Source: Deltaproteobacteria bacterium (GTDB lineage Bacteria; Desulfobacterota; DSM-4660; Desulfatiglandales; Desulfatiglandaceae). Taken from it: a stretch of DNA of 54,774 nucleotides. How positions within the stretch are numbered: position 1 is the first letter of the stretch; each line of letters starts with the position of its first letter. The stretch is from positions 1 to 54,774 of the forward strand of contig JAIPDI010000036.1 of assembly GCA_021737785.1 (NCBI GenBank), read 5' to 3'. The position numbers and the translations under genes are program-made. Below are positions 1,439-37,951 of the stretch, piece after piece. The notes beneath the pieces are model-generated. The model made no database searches, was not told the DNA's origin, and was given only the letters and a program-made list of their open reading frames with translations.

Positions 1439-3136
1439 TTAGGGGCCATTACAATGTGCCAGATATTTTTGTATAGCCATGTATCGGCTTCCTGTTCTTT
1501 TAAAAGTGGAGACAGCATCTTCAGGGGAACAGACGATCGGTTCCCCGTGAATGTTTAAGCTTGTATTAAGCACGATACCGTTACCCGTCAGGTTTTTGAG
1601 TTCCATGAGCAGGCTGTGAAAAATGGTGTCCTGTTTCTTGATAATCTGAGGACGGCATGTGCCGTCCACGTTTATCACCCCCCGTACAAGGGGCTTCTTA
1701 TCTTCCCGAACCATATAGGCCATTGTCATGAACTCATTTGGGCGCCCATCATAGTCTTCCAAGATTTCTTCCGCATCCTCCTCAAGCATGGCAGGACAGA
1801 AGGGCTGGTACCAGACCCGTTTCTTGAGCTTCAAGTTAAGGGCATCTTTGACGTCGGTGGAGTCGGGCCGCGCAAGGATGGATCGCGCCCCTAAGGTCCT
1901 GGGACCCAGTTCCATACGCCCCTGAAACCATAGAACGATCTCGCCAGCGGCGATTAGCCGGGCAACTTCTCTAACAATATCAGTAGATTTTCTGTAAGAA
2001 AGCCCGTTTTGTCTAAGGGTATGCTCTATCTCCACATCATCGTATTCCGGGCCGAGAGAAAGGTGATTCAGGAGGACCCGATTTGTGCTGTTCAACCGGA
2101 AATTTGCCACCAATGCGGCTCCCAGCGCTAAACCCCCATCGCCCATATGCGGGAAAATGAAGCACCGTTTTACTTGAGGCAAGGTCCTCAGACGCCGGTT
2201 TACCTTCACGTTTGAAAATACCCCTCCGGAAAGGCAGATGTGCTCTTGCCCAGTAATAGCGATGGCGTTCTGCACCAATTGCATGCACTTGACCTCCAGG
2301 GTGCGCTGAGCCATATAGGCAAACTGCTCCGACGGATAACGCCAGAGGATCTTTCTCAGCGCCTCGTACATTCCCAGTGAGGAATGGCGGCAGTGCACTG
2401 ACATGCCTTCCACAGCGATTAGATTGAGCAAAGGATTTTCAGCGTCGGCTATTGGATGTGCATAGTTGGCGAGTGCCATCACCTTTCCCTCATCCTCCAA
2501 CTCCCGCATATTCAACAAATTAGTCACATGTTCAAAAAAGATGCCGAGGGAGTGACGAGCTGAGAGGGAGGCCATTTTTTCAAGCCGCCCATTTTCAAAA
2601 CGATACACAGAGCCTGACAAGCCATCTCCCACACCGTCAAGAGTGAGAACCAGAGATTGCGAAAATCCGCTGCAAAATGCCGCTGCCGCAGCGTGGGCGT
2701 GATGGTGGTCCACCAGATGCAACCTAAACTGTTTAAATCCAATACTTTTAAGGCGTTTCTGAAGTGTACTGGAACTGATCCAGTTCGTGGGGAGGGAGGG
2801 GCCATATTCTGTCAGTCGGTATTTCATTCTTTTCTTGAAGGGAGAGGTCCCGGCCGGGCCTTTCTTTCTTCTGCGGATAAGATAATATTCCTCCTTAAGC
2901 GAGGGAAAAACACGGGTTAGCGTTTTTGCAAAATCCGATGTGGAAATAGCGATCTCGGATAGTTGCGAGATCTCGGTCCCAGTATACTCGAGACAAGCCC
3001 GAATGGACATTTCGGGGAACGCGACTTCCAGCTTTCTTCGAGACAGTCGTTCCTCGTTAATGGCGAAAAGGATTTTATCGCCTTCGATCAAGGCCGCTCC
3101 TGAATCGTGGCCGTCCCATATGCCAAGTATTTTCAT
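1439..3136 (-). CDS. NodU/CmcH-family carbamoyltransferase
   Basis: A 565-aa O-carbamoyltransferase. These enzymes transfer a carbamoyl group from carbamoyl phosphate to a hydroxyl on a sugar or secondary metabolite. The N-terminal ASKHA/Kae1-like half opens with MKILGIWDGHDSGAALI and has EERLSRRK, then the metal-binding HHHAHAAAAAF (about residue 145). LSGGVFSNVKVNRRL follows near residue 305. The C-terminal YrdC-like half carries WFQGRMELGPRTLGARSIL (about 405-423) and LNTSLNIHGEPIV (about 525). Length matches the family. The 18-bp gap to the radical SAM gene upstream supports one operon. Given the glycosyltransferases on both sides, carbamoylation of a surface glycan sugar is the best inference. 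Confidence 0.9.
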   Translation of the reverse strand: MKILGIWDGHDSGAALIEGDKILFAINEERLSRRKLEVAFPEMSIRACLEYTGTEISQLSEIAISTSDFAKTLTRVFPSLKEEYYLIRRRKKGPAGTSPFKKRMKYRLTEYGPSLPTNWISSSTLQKRLKSIGFKQFRLHLVDHHHAHAAAAAFCSGFSQSLVLTLDGVGDGLSGSVYRFENGRLEKMASLSARHSLGIFFEHVTNLLNMRELEDEGKVMALANYAHPIADAENPLLNLIAVEGMSVHCRHSSLGMYEALRKILWRYPSEQFAYMAQRTLEVKCMQLVQNAIAITGQEHICLSGGVFSNVKVNRRLRTLPQVKRCFIFPHMGDGGLALGAALVANFRLNSTNRVLLNHLSLGPEYDDVEIEHTLRQNGLSYRKSTDIVREVARLIAAGEIVLWFQGRMELGPRTLGARSILARPDSTDVKDALNLKLKKRVWYQPFCPAMLEEDAEEILEDYDGRPNEFMTMAYMVREDKKPLVRGVINVDGTCRPQIIKKQDTIFHSLLMELKNLTGNGIVLNTSLNIHGEPIVCSPEDAVSTFKRTGSRYMAIQKYLAHCNGP

Positions 3137-5295: not shown

Positions 5296-5843
5296 CGTTG
5301 TTCTATTAGAAAGAAGTTAACGACTTGTGATATCCTCGATTCGAATACATTGAGTGAGGTCTGAGGTTGACTCCTTAATCAGCTATCGGAACTGTTGACA
5401 AATCTTCTGGAAACCTCATGGATTTCGGGCAACCAAAAAGTACAGATATGCCTTACTTATGTTGTAAGTATTTAATTCCCTCCATTTAATTCCCGAGATC
5501 CGCTTTGTAAGAGATCCATTTAATTGCTTTGATTCCATATTATTGTTGAGATTCCAATCGGTGAGCCTCTGACAAGAACCAGCCGGAAGCGCCTTGGTCA
5601 AAACCTTCATGTGACATGGCAAAACCGTGGGCCTTTCTGTGATGCTCGGCGGGCTTTCTCAATCGCTTTCCCGGTCACAGAAGTTCTCGCCCGAGGCGAT
5701 CGCATCAAAGCAGAAGGGATTGGCGGGTGTCATGACGTCACTGCCTCTGACTCGGCACAGCCGAAACAAAAATTTCCCGCACAAAGACGCAACGCCACCA
5801 AGATTCTTTCTTTTGTAAAAAGGCTGTCCTTCGTTTCCTTCGC

Positions 5844-5930
5844 TATCTTCTGTAAAATTCCAACGGCCTAAAAGAAGTCTCACACAGAGACCAGAGGCAC
5901 AAAGGTTTCATGCTTTAAAAAAAGCTGTCC
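5844..5930. repeat. dispersed 87-bp repeat, copy 1
   Basis: Matches 6067-6153 along its length. It begins TATCTTCTGTAAAATTC, contains TCTCACACAGAGACCAGAGG and CACAAAGG, and ends in an A-run before GCTGTCC. A shortened third copy (CCAACGGCCAAAAGAAAGCT) lies around 6756-6790. The CACAGAG/CACAAAG core also recurs at 32357-32452. Confidence 0.75.
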
Positions 5931-6066
5931 TTCTGTCGCTGGGAGGCCGCAAACAAAACCGCCATGCCTTCGGCAAACGGCTCATAAAAAAAGTATGCTC
6001 CGCGACCTCTGTGACTCGAGTGACCACGCCATGGCGCGGGAATGGGCACTGAGGCCACATCATCCT

Positions 6067-6153
6067 TATCTTCCGCAAAATTCTGAATGGCCCAAAAGAG
6101 ATCTCACACAGAGCCTCAGAGGCACAAAGATTCTTCCTTTAAAAAAATCAGTC
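6067..6153. repeat. dispersed 87-bp repeat, copy 2
   Basis: Second copy of the element at 5844-5930, with the same order of blocks: TATCTTCCGCAAAATTC, then TCTCACACAGAGCCTCAGAG, CACAAAGATTC, and an A-run. It ends about 35 bp before the stop codon of the adjacent lipoprotein gene. Confidence 0.75.
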
Positions 6154-6187
6154 TTCGTTTTCTTCTGTAAGATAAATTCCAGTTTTT

Positions 6188-6733
6188 TTACCGGACCGGC
6201 TTTTGCCATTCCTTGGCAAAGATCTCAGCCACCCGGTTGACCTGGCTCGGATCGATCTTGAGGGCCTTGGCCACCTCCAGATAGAGCTGCCGCCTGTCGT
6301 TGTTCTCGGCGCTGACAAGGCTGTTGAGATCCCGCTTCTCCTTGAGCCCCAACCCCGCGGCATTGCCTAAGGAGACATAGCCGTCATTCCCCTCCTTGAG
6401 CATCCCCTTTTCATAAAAGGGTTTCATCTGGGCATACCGGGCCTTCATTTGCGCCTTGAGGCTCCGGATGGTGGGATTGGATACGCTCAGCTCGTCGGCC
6501 CACGCAGGGGCGCACGCCAGGGCCATCAGGGTTTCCCTCAGATGGAGGCCCCTCCCCTTCCAGAAAAAGCTCCCTTTTCCGTCCGGCGTCTGACTTCTGA
6601 TCTCATCCACAATCTCTCCGGCAACCGATTCCACCTTCTCCGCCGGAAAGTAAATGTTGATGGTCACGCAGGCAACGATCAACGATAAAAAGACCGACGT
6701 TGTTATCCATAAAGCCTTTCGATAGGTGTTCAT
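6188..6733 (-). CDS. lipoprotein with YnbE-like N-terminus fused to YdbL-like (DUF1318) domain
   Basis: A 181-aa exported protein. AAGGAGG lies six bases before the ATG at 6733, which sets the start in preference to the adjacent in-frame ATG at 6736. Residues 8-22 form a lipoprotein signal with lipobox LIVAC and acceptor C22. The next stretch, CVTINIYFPAEKVESVAGEI, resembles the small outer-membrane lipoprotein YnbE. Residues about 66-80 (LRETLMALACAPAWAD) look like a leftover cleavable signal peptide, and about 82-181 is the YdbL/DUF1318 domain (SNPTIRSLKAQMKARYAQM). In E. coli YnbE, YdbL and the AsmA-like YdbH act together in phospholipid transport between membranes. The YdbH-like gene lies just upstream here, which supports the same role. 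Confidence 0.8.
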   Translation of the reverse strand: MNTYRKALWITTSVFLSLIVACVTINIYFPAEKVESVAGEIVDEIRSQTPDGKGSFFWKGRGLHLRETLMALACAPAWADELSVSNPTIRSLKAQMKARYAQMKPFYEKGMLKEGNDGYVSLGNAAGLGLKEKRDLNSLVSAENNDRRQLYLEVAKALKIDPSQVNRVAEIFAKEWQKPVR

Positions 6734-6794
6734 CATTCCCCTCCTTAAATATGCATATCTCCAACGGCCAAAAGAAAGCTCACATAAAGGTTTT

Positions 6795-6975
6795 AGTACC
6801 TTACTTCCTGGTCTTGTGTCATGAAAAACAAGAAAATATGGCCATCCTTCCACCGCACACTTACCCTTCCGTCATTCCGGCACGGTTTTGGCCGGAATCC
6901 AGGAATACGCCGGACTGGATTCCGGCTAAGGGCATGCCGGAATGACGGGGCAGCACCAGCCGTTTTGGTTGCGGT
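6795..6975. repeat. nested-palindrome dispersed repeat, copy A
   Basis: A 181-bp element nearly identical to 37424-37597. Outer inverted arms are CGTCATTCCGGCA (6870-6882) and TGCCGGAATGACG (6935-6947). Inner arms are GCCGGAATCC (6891-6900) and GGATTCCGGC (6918-6927, approximate). Conserved flanks outside the palindrome (GTCATGAAAAACAAGAAAAT on the left, GTTTTGGTTGCGGT on the right) show the unit is longer than the hairpin. It lies between the YdbH-like and YdbL-like genes. No transposase is present, so a non-autonomous element is likely. Confidence 0.85.
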
Positions 6976-7036
6976 TATCGCTTTGGCTTTGTTAATGCCT
7001 GTTCTTCGTTCCCTTCGGTTTCTTCTGTAAAAATCC

Positions 7037-10000
7037 CTATTTGATAACCGGTCCGCCTTGGGAGGTCTTTATTCGCCGGATGCGCTTGATCATATCCTTG
7101 AAACTGACCCGATTATCAGGGTTCTGATTTACCACGTTCACCCCCGATAATAAACCCCTTTTTACCAGATACTCGGTCTCCCCCTCCTTGATGGTGCCGT
7201 TGATTCGGAAGACATCGTTCTCCAGGGTGGCGTGCACGCCGATCTTTTCATAGGGGAACTCCTTGAAAATGGAGGCAAACATACCTGCCATCCCCACAAA
7301 GGGACTCTGGCCCCCGCCGATCTGGGCGATATTTTCCACGGCCTTGACGCTGATCCGCTGGGACGTCCCCTCCTTTTTGACGGTCTCCACCAGAAGGTCG
7401 AATTTCTGGACCTGGCCCTGGGCGATCTCCACCTCTTTGGCATGCCCCTTCAACACCCCCTCGATCCTTCCGAAGGCCGTGTCTGCCGTAAGTTTCGACA
7501 GGTTCAGGTCCTTCCACCGGGCATTCAGTTGAACGACCGGGGTTCCGGAAGAAAGTCCGGACACACCGGGATCGGTAAGGATGACCTCGCCGTCAAACAC
7601 CCTTGCGGTCAAGGCCCCGCTGCTGGTGAGCCGTCCCCCTTCCACGCGTACGGGATTGAGGGTCCCGCTGACGGTTCCTTGTACCGGACGGGGCCATACC
7701 GAAGCCAGGAGCGGCCCCAGGTCCACCCTGTCCATGGCAAGGTCTGTGCTGATTGTGGCGGCGGCTGGCAGATGATCGATCATCACCGGCCCCAGCCGGA
7801 CTTCTCCTCCGGGGATCTTGACAATGGTCGGGGATACCACGGACAATCGATTGGGGCCTGCTCGAAGCAAAACAGCCAGGGCCTGTTCAGGGATGAACGG
7901 AACCCTCAATGAATCTATGGACAGGCCCCCCTCCATCGCAGTCCCCCCACCCTCCCTGTCGTGGTTTTGAACCCAGAGGGGGAGCGCAAATTGGATCCCT
8001 GCGAGCCCCACTCCCCTCTCTTCAGACGAGATCCTCCCCTCCCTCCATCGGAGCGATCCCCTGGTTGTCCAGGCGGACGAGGTCCCTGTGACGCTCACAC
8101 CTGCGGAGATTGCCCCTTCCAGTTGAAGGGTCCCAAGGAACGGCTTTTCCGCCTGATACGGCTCCACAACAAGGAATCTGAACAGCGGCTTCAACGGAAT
8201 CTCGGGGATATCCGCGGTGAGATCCAGTTGCCAGGCAGGTTTTCTTTCAACAATACGGCCCTTCACCGCACAGGTCAGGAGATCCTTTAATCCGAGGTTG
8301 AGACGTGAAAGTTGCAGTTCTCTCTCCTGCATATTGTACGTTCCCGTACAACGGGAAGCCATGGGATGTGTTTTCAAGTTTACGTAGAACCTGTCGTAGA
8401 GGACCTCGCCCTCCCCCGCATCCACGGCCACATCCCCACTGACCACATGGCCTGAAGGGTCTGTCTTGGCGTTAAGGGTCGCCTTGAGAGAGAGATTCTC
8501 TCCCATAATGGTCCCATCCGGGTCCTGAAAGCCCGCTTCCTGAAAGGTCCATTCAGAGGTAACCGCCATCCCCTTTTCTTCATCAAACCGGACCCGGACC
8601 TGAAGCCCATCCTTCACGTCCACCTGCCAGCCTGAAGCAAGAAGGCCCAGACCGACGGCACCTTTGGCCAGCCCGGTCTCTTGGCCCTGGATATGGATCT
8701 TTTTGAACGTTCCATTCTCAAGCTCCAAAGACGCGGTGATGTTTTTCAACAGGGAAGACCCAAACCGGATCTCCGGCAGGGACATTTCCCGGGTGGCGGC
8801 GTTCATCCGGCCCTTGCCGGCCTCCAGATGGATATCCTCCACCTGGACGGCCCTGTCCCTAAACCGCCCGGTTACCCGCGGTATCCGGGCGGACAGCGCT
8901 TTCAGATCGAGGAGCGGGTATCTCCCTGAAAAGGAGACGGCCGCCTCAAGGGGTTCCATTGCGATTCCATTTCCTCGATATATGACATCTTCCGCCTTCA
9001 GGTCGGCGGAGATCTCCATGCCGGGGACCTCCCCCCGGGCCTCGATGCTGCCGGAAAGGGTCCCTCTCAATTTGAGATCCCCACGCGTGAAAGAGACCTG
9101 ATTCCGCTCCAAACGGGCATTGAGATCCGTATCCCATACCCATCCCGCCTCTTTCTCTGCGCCCTTGATCCTCCCGGCGACATGGATCGGCCCGCCCAGT
9201 TTTACGGGTTCCGTCGTGTTTCTCAATCCGGCGGGAAGAAGCGGGACCAGCTCCTGGGGCGTTAGGCGGCAGTCCGCCACCTTGAGGTCCATGGTTTTCC
9301 CGACCCCCACCCCTCCATCCAGTTCCCCTTCCAATTGCAGCCGCTGGCCAAGGGTGAGATGGAGGGGATGAACCGTCACTTGGCGATCTTTCAGGCTGAA
9401 GGCGCCGTCTGCAGTGACCTTAAGGTCCAGCCGGACAGGCTCCTTTTGCCCATTCGTCCGGATATCCGCCTCCTCGAGGGTGACATTCAAGTCCTCAAAC
9501 ACCACTGTTCCCTTGTCCGGCCGGTATCCCAGACGCGTGTCCCCTTTGAGATGTTTGAAATCCAGAAAAGGGCTTTGGAACCGGACATCATCCATGGTGA
9601 CGGAGACCCCGATCCGGGTATCTACCAGGGATAAGGCCCCGTCCGTCTTCATCTGAAGCCGGGGCGCCAGGAGATGCATCTTTCTTGAAGGCCATTCAAA
9701 TCGGACACTGGAGGAGATCTCGACCCGATGATCGATGCTCAGCCTGGCCTCAAGGTCATTGAAGAGAAGGGTCTGGTCGTCCAATTGGACCCTTGCGGCG
9801 CCATGGGTAAGGGTTGCGTCCTCAAGCCTGAGGTCCCTGAACACCAAGGCTGCAAACACCCTCTTCAGGATCCCGCTTATAAAAGATGGGGGCTTCGGCC
9901 CCCGGGCCATGCTGGATACAGAGGGAGCTTTGAGAATGCGGAACCACAGGCCCTTGACCTCAAGGCGGGTGACCACAAGGGATTTGCGGCCAAAAGAACC

Positions 10001-10288
10001 CTCCACGGAAAACGCTGCATCGAGATCCGGAACATCCAGAAAAATGCCATGCACCTCTTTTCCCGGTTTGACCGTGATTCCCTCTGCCGAGAGGTGTAAG
10101 GGATCGCGGCCGTAGGAAAGCCGCCCGATGGACACGGATGCCCCCATGGCCCGGGAAAGGGAGGCCTCCACCAGGTCCTTTGTTGCGGAGGGATGGGTGT
10201 AATAGTAGAGCACTGCGCCGGCAGATGCGATAATGGAGAGGAGAAGAAAAAGGGAGACGATCAGAATAATTTTTGTTCCGGTCTTCAT
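7037..10288 (-). CDS. YdbH-like AsmA/TamB-type intermembrane lipid-transport protein
   Basis: A 1083-aa inner-membrane-anchored periplasmic protein. An N-terminal helix (IILIVSLFLLLSIIASAGAV, about residues 8-27) is followed by more than 1000 residues of repetitive beta-rich sequence typical of the AsmA/YdbH bridge-like lipid-transfer proteins. The C-terminal part (GRIEGVLKGHAKEVEIAQGQ; KFDLLVETVKKEGTSQRIS; VFRINGTIKEGETEYLVKRG) fits the YdbH C-terminal domain, which contacts the small lipoprotein YnbE. E. coli YdbH is about 880 aa, so this one is longer. The YnbE/YdbL-like fusion follows on the same strand after 303 bp. The role inferred is anterograde phospholipid movement to the outer membrane. 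The family is clear; the YdbH subfamily call rests on context as well as sequence. Confidence 0.75.
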   Translation of the reverse strand: MKTGTKIILIVSLFLLLSIIASAGAVLYYYTHPSATKDLVEASLSRAMGASVSIGRLSYGRDPLHLSAEGITVKPGKEVHGIFLDVPDLDAAFSVEGSFGRKSLVVTRLEVKGLWFRILKAPSVSSMARGPKPPSFISGILKRVFAALVFRDLRLEDATLTHGAARVQLDDQTLLFNDLEARLSIDHRVEISSSVRFEWPSRKMHLLAPRLQMKTDGALSLVDTRIGVSVTMDDVRFQSPFLDFKHLKGDTRLGYRPDKGTVVFEDLNVTLEEADIRTNGQKEPVRLDLKVTADGAFSLKDRQVTVHPLHLTLGQRLQLEGELDGGVGVGKTMDLKVADCRLTPQELVPLLPAGLRNTTEPVKLGGPIHVAGRIKGAEKEAGWVWDTDLNARLERNQVSFTRGDLKLRGTLSGSIEARGEVPGMEISADLKAEDVIYRGNGIAMEPLEAAVSFSGRYPLLDLKALSARIPRVTGRFRDRAVQVEDIHLEAGKGRMNAATREMSLPEIRFGSSLLKNITASLELENGTFKKIHIQGQETGLAKGAVGLGLLASGWQVDVKDGLQVRVRFDEEKGMAVTSEWTFQEAGFQDPDGTIMGENLSLKATLNAKTDPSGHVVSGDVAVDAGEGEVLYDRFYVNLKTHPMASRCTGTYNMQERELQLSRLNLGLKDLLTCAVKGRIVERKPAWQLDLTADIPEIPLKPLFRFLVVEPYQAEKPFLGTLQLEGAISAGVSVTGTSSAWTTRGSLRWREGRISSEERGVGLAGIQFALPLWVQNHDREGGGTAMEGGLSIDSLRVPFIPEQALAVLLRAGPNRLSVVSPTIVKIPGGEVRLGPVMIDHLPAAATISTDLAMDRVDLGPLLASVWPRPVQGTVSGTLNPVRVEGGRLTSSGALTARVFDGEVILTDPGVSGLSSGTPVVQLNARWKDLNLSKLTADTAFGRIEGVLKGHAKEVEIAQGQVQKFDLLVETVKKEGTSQRISVKAVENIAQIGGGQSPFVGMAGMFASIFKEFPYEKIGVHATLENDVFRINGTIKEGETEYLVKRGLLSGVNVVNQNPDNRVSFKDMIKRIRRIKTSQGGPVIK

Positions 10289-10365: not shown

Positions 10366-10650
10366 ATGGAAACATCGATCAATAGACTGAAAGAGGCACT
10401 CAGGAATTCCGAGAGGGTCGCTGTCCTGACAGGGGCCGGCGTTTCCGCGGAAAAATGCCAGGTCATGCTGGTGATCGGGACGTCCAGCGTGGTTCAGCCG
10501 GCCGCGTCCCTGGCCTATACGGCCAAGTCAGGGGGGGCGCCGGTGGCGGAAATCAATCTCGAGAGGACCCCCAACTCCGACCTGATGGATATTGTGCTCA
10601 CGGGAAAGGCCGGGGAGATCCTTCCCGGGCTGGTGGAGGGGTGGGCGTAA
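10366..10650 (+). pseudogene. internally deleted sirtuin (NAD-dependent deacylase remnant)
   Basis: A 94-aa frame whose two ends both come from a Sir2-family protein. Residues 1-29 read as the sirtuin start (LRNSERVAVLTGAGVSAE, the NAD-binding GAGxSAE). The next residues jump to the C-terminal Rossmann strand (MLVIGTSSVVQPAASLAYTA, then VAEINLERTPNSDL and a family-typical ending). About 150 residues are missing, including the QNVDGLH catalytic region and the zinc-binding cysteines, while the frame stays open. Normal length is about 240 aa. The product cannot be an active deacylase. There is no good ribosome site. The GTG start of the next gene lies inside its last codons. It is either a true genomic deletion or an assembly collapse. 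Confidence 0.85.
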
Positions 10651-37278: not shown

Positions 37279-37951
37279 ATCCTCTCCTTTCCATCCGGTT
37301 GTTAAGGCAAGGGAAAATTCATCTGTCCATCATTACTGCCGATCTACAGAGCAGCGTAAAGATGTCCGCAGCAATTCAGCGCCGGGAAGCCCTCCCGGCC
37401 CCAACGATCAATTTCGGCACATCAGTACCTGGTCTTCTGTCATGAAAAACAAGAAAATGTGGCCATCCTTCTTTTGCACGTTTAGCCTTCCGTCATTCCG
37501 GCACGATTCCAGCCGGAATCCGGAGATACGGCGGACTGGATTCCGGCTAAGGGCATGCCGGAATGACGGGACAGTACGCAGCCGTTTTGGTTGCGGTCGT
37601 CAGGCCGCCTTAGAATAAACAGCAATAACAGCGTCTTAATCAGAGAAACGCACTGGTTAAAAAGATAAATCATGCGTAATATTCTGTCAAGAAAAGCAAA
37701 AGGACCGGCGAAGTCTAAAAAAGGGGCGTCAGATGCCCCCAAAAATCCCGTCATAATTTTAGTATTGCAAAGCGATGGGAAAGTAGACAAAGATCATCTC
37801 AATGAATGATTATTGTTGAGCCGGTCCGGATTTTCGGTTAGATAATCGCTCCAGCCGGATATCAAGAAATTTGCCCTTAATCTGTTTATCCGACATGCGC
37901 TTGACATCTGCTGCGGGTATCAGGCTCCGGCATCCAGAAAGGAGATATGTA
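37279..37951. other. intergenic region with a dispersed nested-palindrome repeat
   Basis: About 670 bp between the divergent J-domain and amidohydrolase genes. It holds the second copy of the 180-bp repeat and an AT-rich right half. Frames crossing the repeat (for example 37482-37790 on the minus strand) are translation of the element, not genes. No consensus promoter was found. Confidence 0.55.
37424..37597. repeat. nested-palindrome dispersed repeat, copy B
   Basis: Matches 6795-6975. Outer arms CGTCATTCCGGCA (37491-37503) and TGCCGGAATGACG (37556-37568); inner arms AGCCGGAATCC (37511-37521) and GGATTCCGGCT (37538-37548). The flank GTTTTGGTTGCGGT is shared, and the following AGGCCGCCTTAGA recurs near 54463-54475. 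Confidence 0.85.

Follow-up and report, generated by a model that had tools for sequence, protein, structure and literature searches.

What becomes of an intermembrane bridge when its lipoprotein and its chaperone are encoded by one gene is the question raised by this locus. The route by which phospholipids reach the outer membrane is, to our knowledge, an open question. Escherichia coli has three redundant routes, of which the YdbH-YnbE-YdbL bridge is one; the YdbL component of this bridge is a soluble protein with an N-terminal signal peptide of its own. YnbE reportedly multimerizes, and YdbL is said to be the chaperone that holds back the YnbE multimers, in work by Kumar, Davis, and Ruiz (PNAS, 2024). 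According to work cited in PMC12045153, E. coli YdbH is extended by YnbE through strand addition.

The window, the whole stretch of 54,774 nucleotides analyzed here, carries a gene in which a lipoprotein start runs into a YdbL-like domain. The preliminary description of this DNA had taken the joint between the two parts for a former signal peptide with its cleavage site. The question is then whether the product stays whole or is cut into two. No account of the fusion turned up in the open-license literature searched.

Layout and relationships of the fused protein

The fused gene occupies positions 6188..6733 on the minus strand, from an ATG at 6733-6731 to a TAA at 6190-6188, and encodes 181 amino acids over which homologues span the full length. 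A likely Shine-Dalgarno sequence, TAAGGAGGGG, was read by eye at 6738..6747 (minus strand). All features of the protein that follow lie on this strand. Residues 1-21 (6671..6733) form a predicted lipoprotein signal peptide, seen as a helix over residues 3-23 in the AlphaFold2 model (mean pLDDT, 81.6), and residues 19-22, I-V-A-C, are a lipobox with Cys22. The Cys is found at this column in 115/115 unique fused proteins, whose rows were picked by a Cys-containing pattern.

The putatively lipidated Cys22 opens a strand-like segment, CVTINIYFP (residues 22-30; 6644..6670). In the alignment of the 115 proteins, its C, T, N, Y, F, and P are invariant; the row-selecting pattern itself fixes C, T, N, and F and leaves Y and P free. 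The segment has low confidence in the monomer model. An amphipathic helix, AEKVESVAGEIVDEIR (residues 31-46; 6596..6643), is modeled over exactly these residues, with A38 and I41 conserved, and it leads into a variable linker (residues 47-68; 6530..6595) with low column conservation and a pLDDT below 50 over residues 50-67. The joint, LMALACAPAWAD (residues 69-80), comprises a degenerate h-region-like stretch, LMALACAP (residues 69-76; 6506..6529), and a conserved A-x-A motif, AWA (residues 77-79; 6497..6505), with a predicted cut after residue 79. The YdbL/DUF1318 domain takes up residues 80-181 (6191..6496). The reading frame, the lipobox, and the DUF1318 match were all present where the preliminary description had placed a YnbE-like layout running into a YdbL domain.

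Three lines of evidence identify the domain. PF07027 (DUF1318) matches over residues 97-169 with a score of 34 bits, where the Pfam cut-off is 27, and it was matched by 69/69 relatives at a threshold of E up to 10. A profile of the 69 relatives matched the crystal structure of E. coli YdbL, 28oj, at an E value of 5.6e-8. The same structure was the first fold match of the AlphaFold2 model, with a probability of 1.00 and a TMt of 0.69 across 79 columns, although the E value from Foldseek was 0.14. No match was obtained by phmmer with the single fused protein against the PDB or by an NCBIfam search with it. Judged from family, profile, and modeled fold, the C-terminal half of the fused protein is a YdbL-type domain, and this part of the preliminary description is borne out.

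The domain nevertheless departs from E. coli YdbL in its setting. It is carried on a lipoprotein and sits behind a lipoprotein signal peptide, whereas E. coli YdbL is soluble and the stand-alone YdbL relatives in the sampled genomes carry an N-terminal signal peptide. The usual C-terminal G-W...G-x-W-x-x-K tail, present in 76/115 relatives and forming a small hairpin in the model of the relative L060, is absent from the window's lineage (window 6188-6230).

The resemblance of the N-terminal part to YnbE holds better in layout than in sequence. Like E. coli YnbE, it has a lipobox, a short segment of strand-forming type, an amphipathic helix, and a place between an AsmA-like gene and YdbL. PF13617 (YnbE), however, had no match anywhere in the window's own genome at E up to 10, and it was not among the 25 of 72 families listed for the 69 relatives. 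When 107 mature N-termini were compared by hhalign with 28 YnbE-type lipoproteins, gathered partly by PF13617 and partly by strand pattern, the probability was 33.8% and the score, 19.5, exceeded all 119 column shuffles (maximum, 15.3). Taken apart, the two YnbE subfamilies gave scores of 11.1 and 14.1, reached by 7/119 and 1/119 shuffles, and hhalign probabilities of only 0.9% and 3.8%. The suggested kinship with YnbE is a weak one on these profiles, and the YnbE-like start stands only as a layout.

The upstream gene and the distribution of the fusion

Upstream of the fused gene, at 7037..10288 on the minus strand, lies a gene for a 1,083-residue AsmA-like inner-membrane protein, identified by weak YhdP, DUF748, TamB, and AsmA matches and YdbH-like by position. 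AsmA-like relatives lie directly upstream in 149 of the 162 fused loci with at least 600 nt of upstream sequence, so that the lipoprotein gene stands beside an AsmA-like bridge gene, in the order of ydbH-ynbE-ydbL. The median gap is 35 nt, and the gap in the window is 303 nt.

PF11739 (YdbH) had no match in the Pfam search of the upstream gene, nor in any of 6 upstream proteins of fused loci, whereas the split-operon control L114 matched at 82.5 bits. Of 20 split loci searched, 15 had large open reading frames that did match a profile of the fused-associated AsmA-like proteins, with a best E value of 2.3e-20 and mostly towards the C-terminus. These matches indicate a distant homology between the upstream gene and the YdbH of the split loci. 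The fused gene is a variant of the YdbH-YnbE-YdbL kind, alike in gene order (AsmA-like protein, lipoprotein, YdbL domain) and in parts; it differs in that two of the parts are fused and in that the AsmA-like partner is a distant match outside PF11739.

A survey of DUF1318 proteins, which the preliminary description had called for, found the fused architecture in several lineages. In a sample of 297 genomes from the window's phylum, 48 matched the window protein and 74 matched DUF1318. By reading frame lengths and sequences, these 74 were assigned to stand-alone YdbL (21 genomes), the window's own fusion type, termed type B (43), type C (8, one of which also has type D), and type D only (2). 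Type C begins CAIITVNVYFP... and type D begins CTLAKVDVNVV.... In the class of Methylophaga, 45 of 229 genomes carried the fused form and 21 carried PF13617. Fused genes were also found in named Nitrospirota and Aminicenantes loci, within a set of relatives that comprises the 80 best among 521 confirmed ones and leans to the window's own lineage.

The split and fused forms were alternatives in the sampled genomes. Their overlap was zero in the 229 genomes (P = 0.008 if independent, with relatedness ignored), and it was likewise zero between the 21 split and 43 type B genomes of the phylum sample (P = 0.03, relatedness again ignored). A YnbE-type lipoprotein lay beside the stand-alone YdbL in 15/22 such loci examined. 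That the fusion also exists in other lineages lends support to the view that chaperone and lipoprotein act as a pair, and the fusion gives their stoichiometry.

A tree was built from 83 domains, namely, every third row of the 115 proteins and of 30 gammaproteobacterial proteins, plus the stand-alone, type C, and type D rows. The 21 stand-alone and 62 fused domains were split on one branch (99/95) in this tree, which has few columns, and type D formed a clade (100/99). Types B and C have a common N-terminus (hhalign, 98.6%). Provided that the root falls among the stand-alone forms, the simplest reading of these sequences would be one old fusion, with the joint motif retained in types B and C and absent in type D.

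The other fused types were observed as follows. Type C, a second fused lineage (CAIITVNVYFPEKAVKEAY; L190, L191, L193, L194, L195, L197, L200, and L113), carries a longer insert ahead of its YdbL domain, and an A-x-A is present. The window's own genome holds a second DUF1318 lipoprotein of type D, CTLAKVDVNVVSERTALENQ (L002, C5, 1495-2082, minus strand), with no A-x-A at the joint. The large open reading frame beside it (L002, 2303-3319, minus strand) is putatively AsmA-like, as judged by place and look.

The joint motif and its possible cleavage

Conservation at the joint is concentrated in two residues. Among the 115 proteins, position -3 is A in 105, V in 7, C in 2, and I in 1, and position -1 is A in 114 and G in 1. 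The corresponding conservation is 3.79 and 4.25 bits, against 0.70 and 1.70 bits at the positions flanking -3; position -2 and the positions preceding the motif are variable. Ala stands at both -3 and -1 in 104/115 proteins; over 1,000 shuffles of the linkers, the mean was 1.9 and no shuffle exceeded 7. The 115 include L113, which belongs to type C by sequence and tree, and omit L099 and L122, which were missed by the pattern and both have A-Y-A before the domain.

The same was seen beyond this set. Both Ala residues were found in 30/30 proteins of the Gammaproteobacteria sample, which was read from 30 of the 45 gammaproteobacterial fused genes and in which one row, L203, equals L066 of the 115. 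In type C, the A-x-A was found in 7/7 proteins, plus L113. Rows read by eye gave A-x-A in 21/22 near relatives of the window and CFA in the other one, with linkers that differ widely. All four Ala codons are used in the motif, which indicates that selection acts on the protein. The proposal would have failed had the joint proved simply a linker; the observations go against this, since the A-x-A is conserved within a linker that otherwise lacks conservation.

The remainder of the joint falls short of a signal peptide. For the most hydrophobic 8 residues ahead of the motif, the median hydropathy was 1.40 in the 115 fused proteins, against 3.12 in 17 signal peptides of stand-alone YdbL and 0.70 at 701 chance A-x-A sites, and only 9% of the fused joints reached 2.5. 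The mean charge of the n-region was 0.10 in the fused family and 1.76 in stand-alone YdbL. The window protein is among the better joints, with a hydropathy of 2.09 and an n-region charge of +2. In a set of 68 heuristically chosen N-terminal signal peptides, just 13/68 have A at -3; membrane anchors are probably among them, and the set did not serve as a standard for -2 and +1. The possibility that the joint holds a second lipobox (ALAC) was rejected, because only 8/115 proteins have Cys at that column.

The proposal of a former signal peptide thus held for the c-region and failed for the h- and n-regions: as a family, the joints have neither a hydrophobic h-region nor a positive n-region. Since the h-region lies far below those of true signal peptides and the n-region carries almost no net charge, standard presentation to signal peptidase I is doubtful. 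On the residues compared here, the joint is more than a plain linker and less than an intact signal peptide, and the A-x-A itself appears to be under selection, since it was kept while the h- and n-regions decayed in most relatives.

This pattern bears on two alternatives. The joint could be a relic, an old ydbL signal peptide left by the gene fusion and now a neutral linker, as its position, which agrees with the cleavage site of stand-alone YdbL, and its decayed h- and n-regions might suggest. Under neutral decay, however, -3 and -1 would not be the only positions spared, and the A-x-A is conserved like structural residues over several phyla while its surroundings are not; a relic is already disfavored and seems very unlikely. 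Alternatively, an internal start codon could yield a second, separately exported YdbL. An in-frame ATG, GTG, or TTG does occur in the linker of 46/115 proteins, with a Shine-Dalgarno-like sequence in 12, but only 8/115 combine a start, such a sequence, and K or R before the h-region. The internal starts are unconserved and the segment is too weak as a signal peptide, and a dual start was rejected as highly improbable.

The motif has the features of a cleavage site. Stand-alone YdbL, in which cutting is obligatory, has the same kind of site. P or G occurs at -6 to -4 in 82/115 proteins, compared with 37% at background A-x-A sites, and Ala at -3 and -1 accords with the residue preferences of signal peptidase I. 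Pro is never found at +1 of the joint in the 115 proteins, and Pro at +1 blocks this enzyme according to PMC11898559.

The structure models give a further indication. The motif lies in low-confidence coil both in the window protein (mean of 55 over residues 71-80) and in L060 (mean of 67 over residues 81-90), so that the monomer would offer no structural reason for the A-x-A. Cutting would best account for a motif conserved within an exposed linker. If it is cut, the A-x-A would, by its sequence context, probably be cut by signal peptidase I. The disordered, exposed site and the poor h-region would also suit another periplasmic protease that cuts the linker at an A-x-A of its own preference; the motif with P or G at -6 to -4 resembles the c-region of signal peptidase I substrates, and we consider such a protease unlikely.

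The serious rival is that the protein stays whole. The YdbL domain would then hang from the outer membrane on its linker as a tethered chaperone, and the A-x-A, often with an aromatic residue in the middle, would be a docking motif for the AsmA-like partner or for the lipoprotein strand. The decayed h- and n-regions agree with this rival, as do a conserved S-L/F start with a hydrophobic stretch ahead of the motif and a helix (residues 67-79) that precedes it in the L060 model. What makes the rival serious is position -2 and type D. In 80% of the 115 proteins, position -2 holds an aromatic residue or His, which is stricter than signal peptidase I needs. Type D has the same overall layout and is fused, with A-x-A at the joint in 0/7 proteins (a lone A-F-A in L202 lies later); this speaks against cutting, in that a fused form can work uncut.

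Against docking, the gammaproteobacterial proteins show a freer position -2 (H, Q, E, V, Y, R, and L), and the motif falls in coil in both monomer models. The combination of A at -3 and -1 with Pro never at +1 is the pattern of signal peptidase I, and an aromatic -2 is also found in 12/17 sites of stand-alone YdbL, where the site has to be cut. We regard the uncut protein as a possibility of perhaps one chance in a few, short of an even one.

The reading that we prefer, with about an even chance of being right as a whole, is that of a two-part envelope pre-lipoprotein that would serve an AsmA-like lipid bridge and be cut after residue 79 to release its chaperone. The chain would be held at the inner membrane by its lipoprotein end while it is cut, either by signal peptidase I or by a protease with the same A-x-A preference. 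This tether may help access to so weakly hydrophobic a site, with the short amphipathic stretch perhaps lying in the surface of the membrane. The products would be a lipopeptide of about 58 residues and a periplasmic chaperone of about 102 residues, made one to one because both come from one chain.

With V and not Asp at +2, the lipidated N-terminal part would be sorted to the outer membrane by the Lol +2 rule. There it would dock by adding a strand to the end of the AsmA-like protein, in the way that YnbE docks on YdbH, while the YdbL domain would stop the sticky segment from self-assembling.

Cutting by signal peptidase I outside an N-terminal signal peptide has a known counterpart in Staphylococcus aureus, in which LtaS is cut by SpsB at such a site, as PMC11898559 and PMC10865820 describe. 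LtaS is a polytopic membrane protein with its site after transmembrane segments, whereas the fused protein would be anchored by lipid, has only a poorly hydrophobic stretch, and lacks transmembrane segments. In its broader form, the reading would describe a widespread envelope polyprotein with two maturation steps, one by lipoprotein signal peptidase at the start and the other by signal peptidase I internally. The internal site would have lost its membrane-inserting half and kept its cutting motif, and the bridge-tip lipopeptide would be born with an equal amount of chaperone. This broader form, which draws on the sequences compared, we hold to be slightly less probable than an even chance.

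If the motif is cut, signal peptidase I would gain a class of substrates that has no real hydrophobic segment and lies outside the textbook rules, and signal-peptide predictors that read only the N-terminus would miss the site. The fused form also offers a simple test system for whether the chaperone needs release.

Other features of the surrounding DNA

A 34-nt inverted repeat (6869-6948), with 12 nt between its arms and 85% complementarity, lies between the AsmA-like and fused genes, and a related 13-mer occurs at 37536. Degenerate repeated blocks of families D1-D4 are intergenic on both sides of the fused gene, at 5790-6173 and 6994-7036. A 94-residue open reading frame at 10366-10650 (plus strand) had no match in Pfam; by its motifs, it looks like a Sir2-type deacetylase reduced to its two ends, without the middle. 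It is followed by a SAM hydroxide adenosyltransferase, and the neighboring genes include one for a carbamoyltransferase (PF02543, PF16861) at 1439-3136 on the minus strand.
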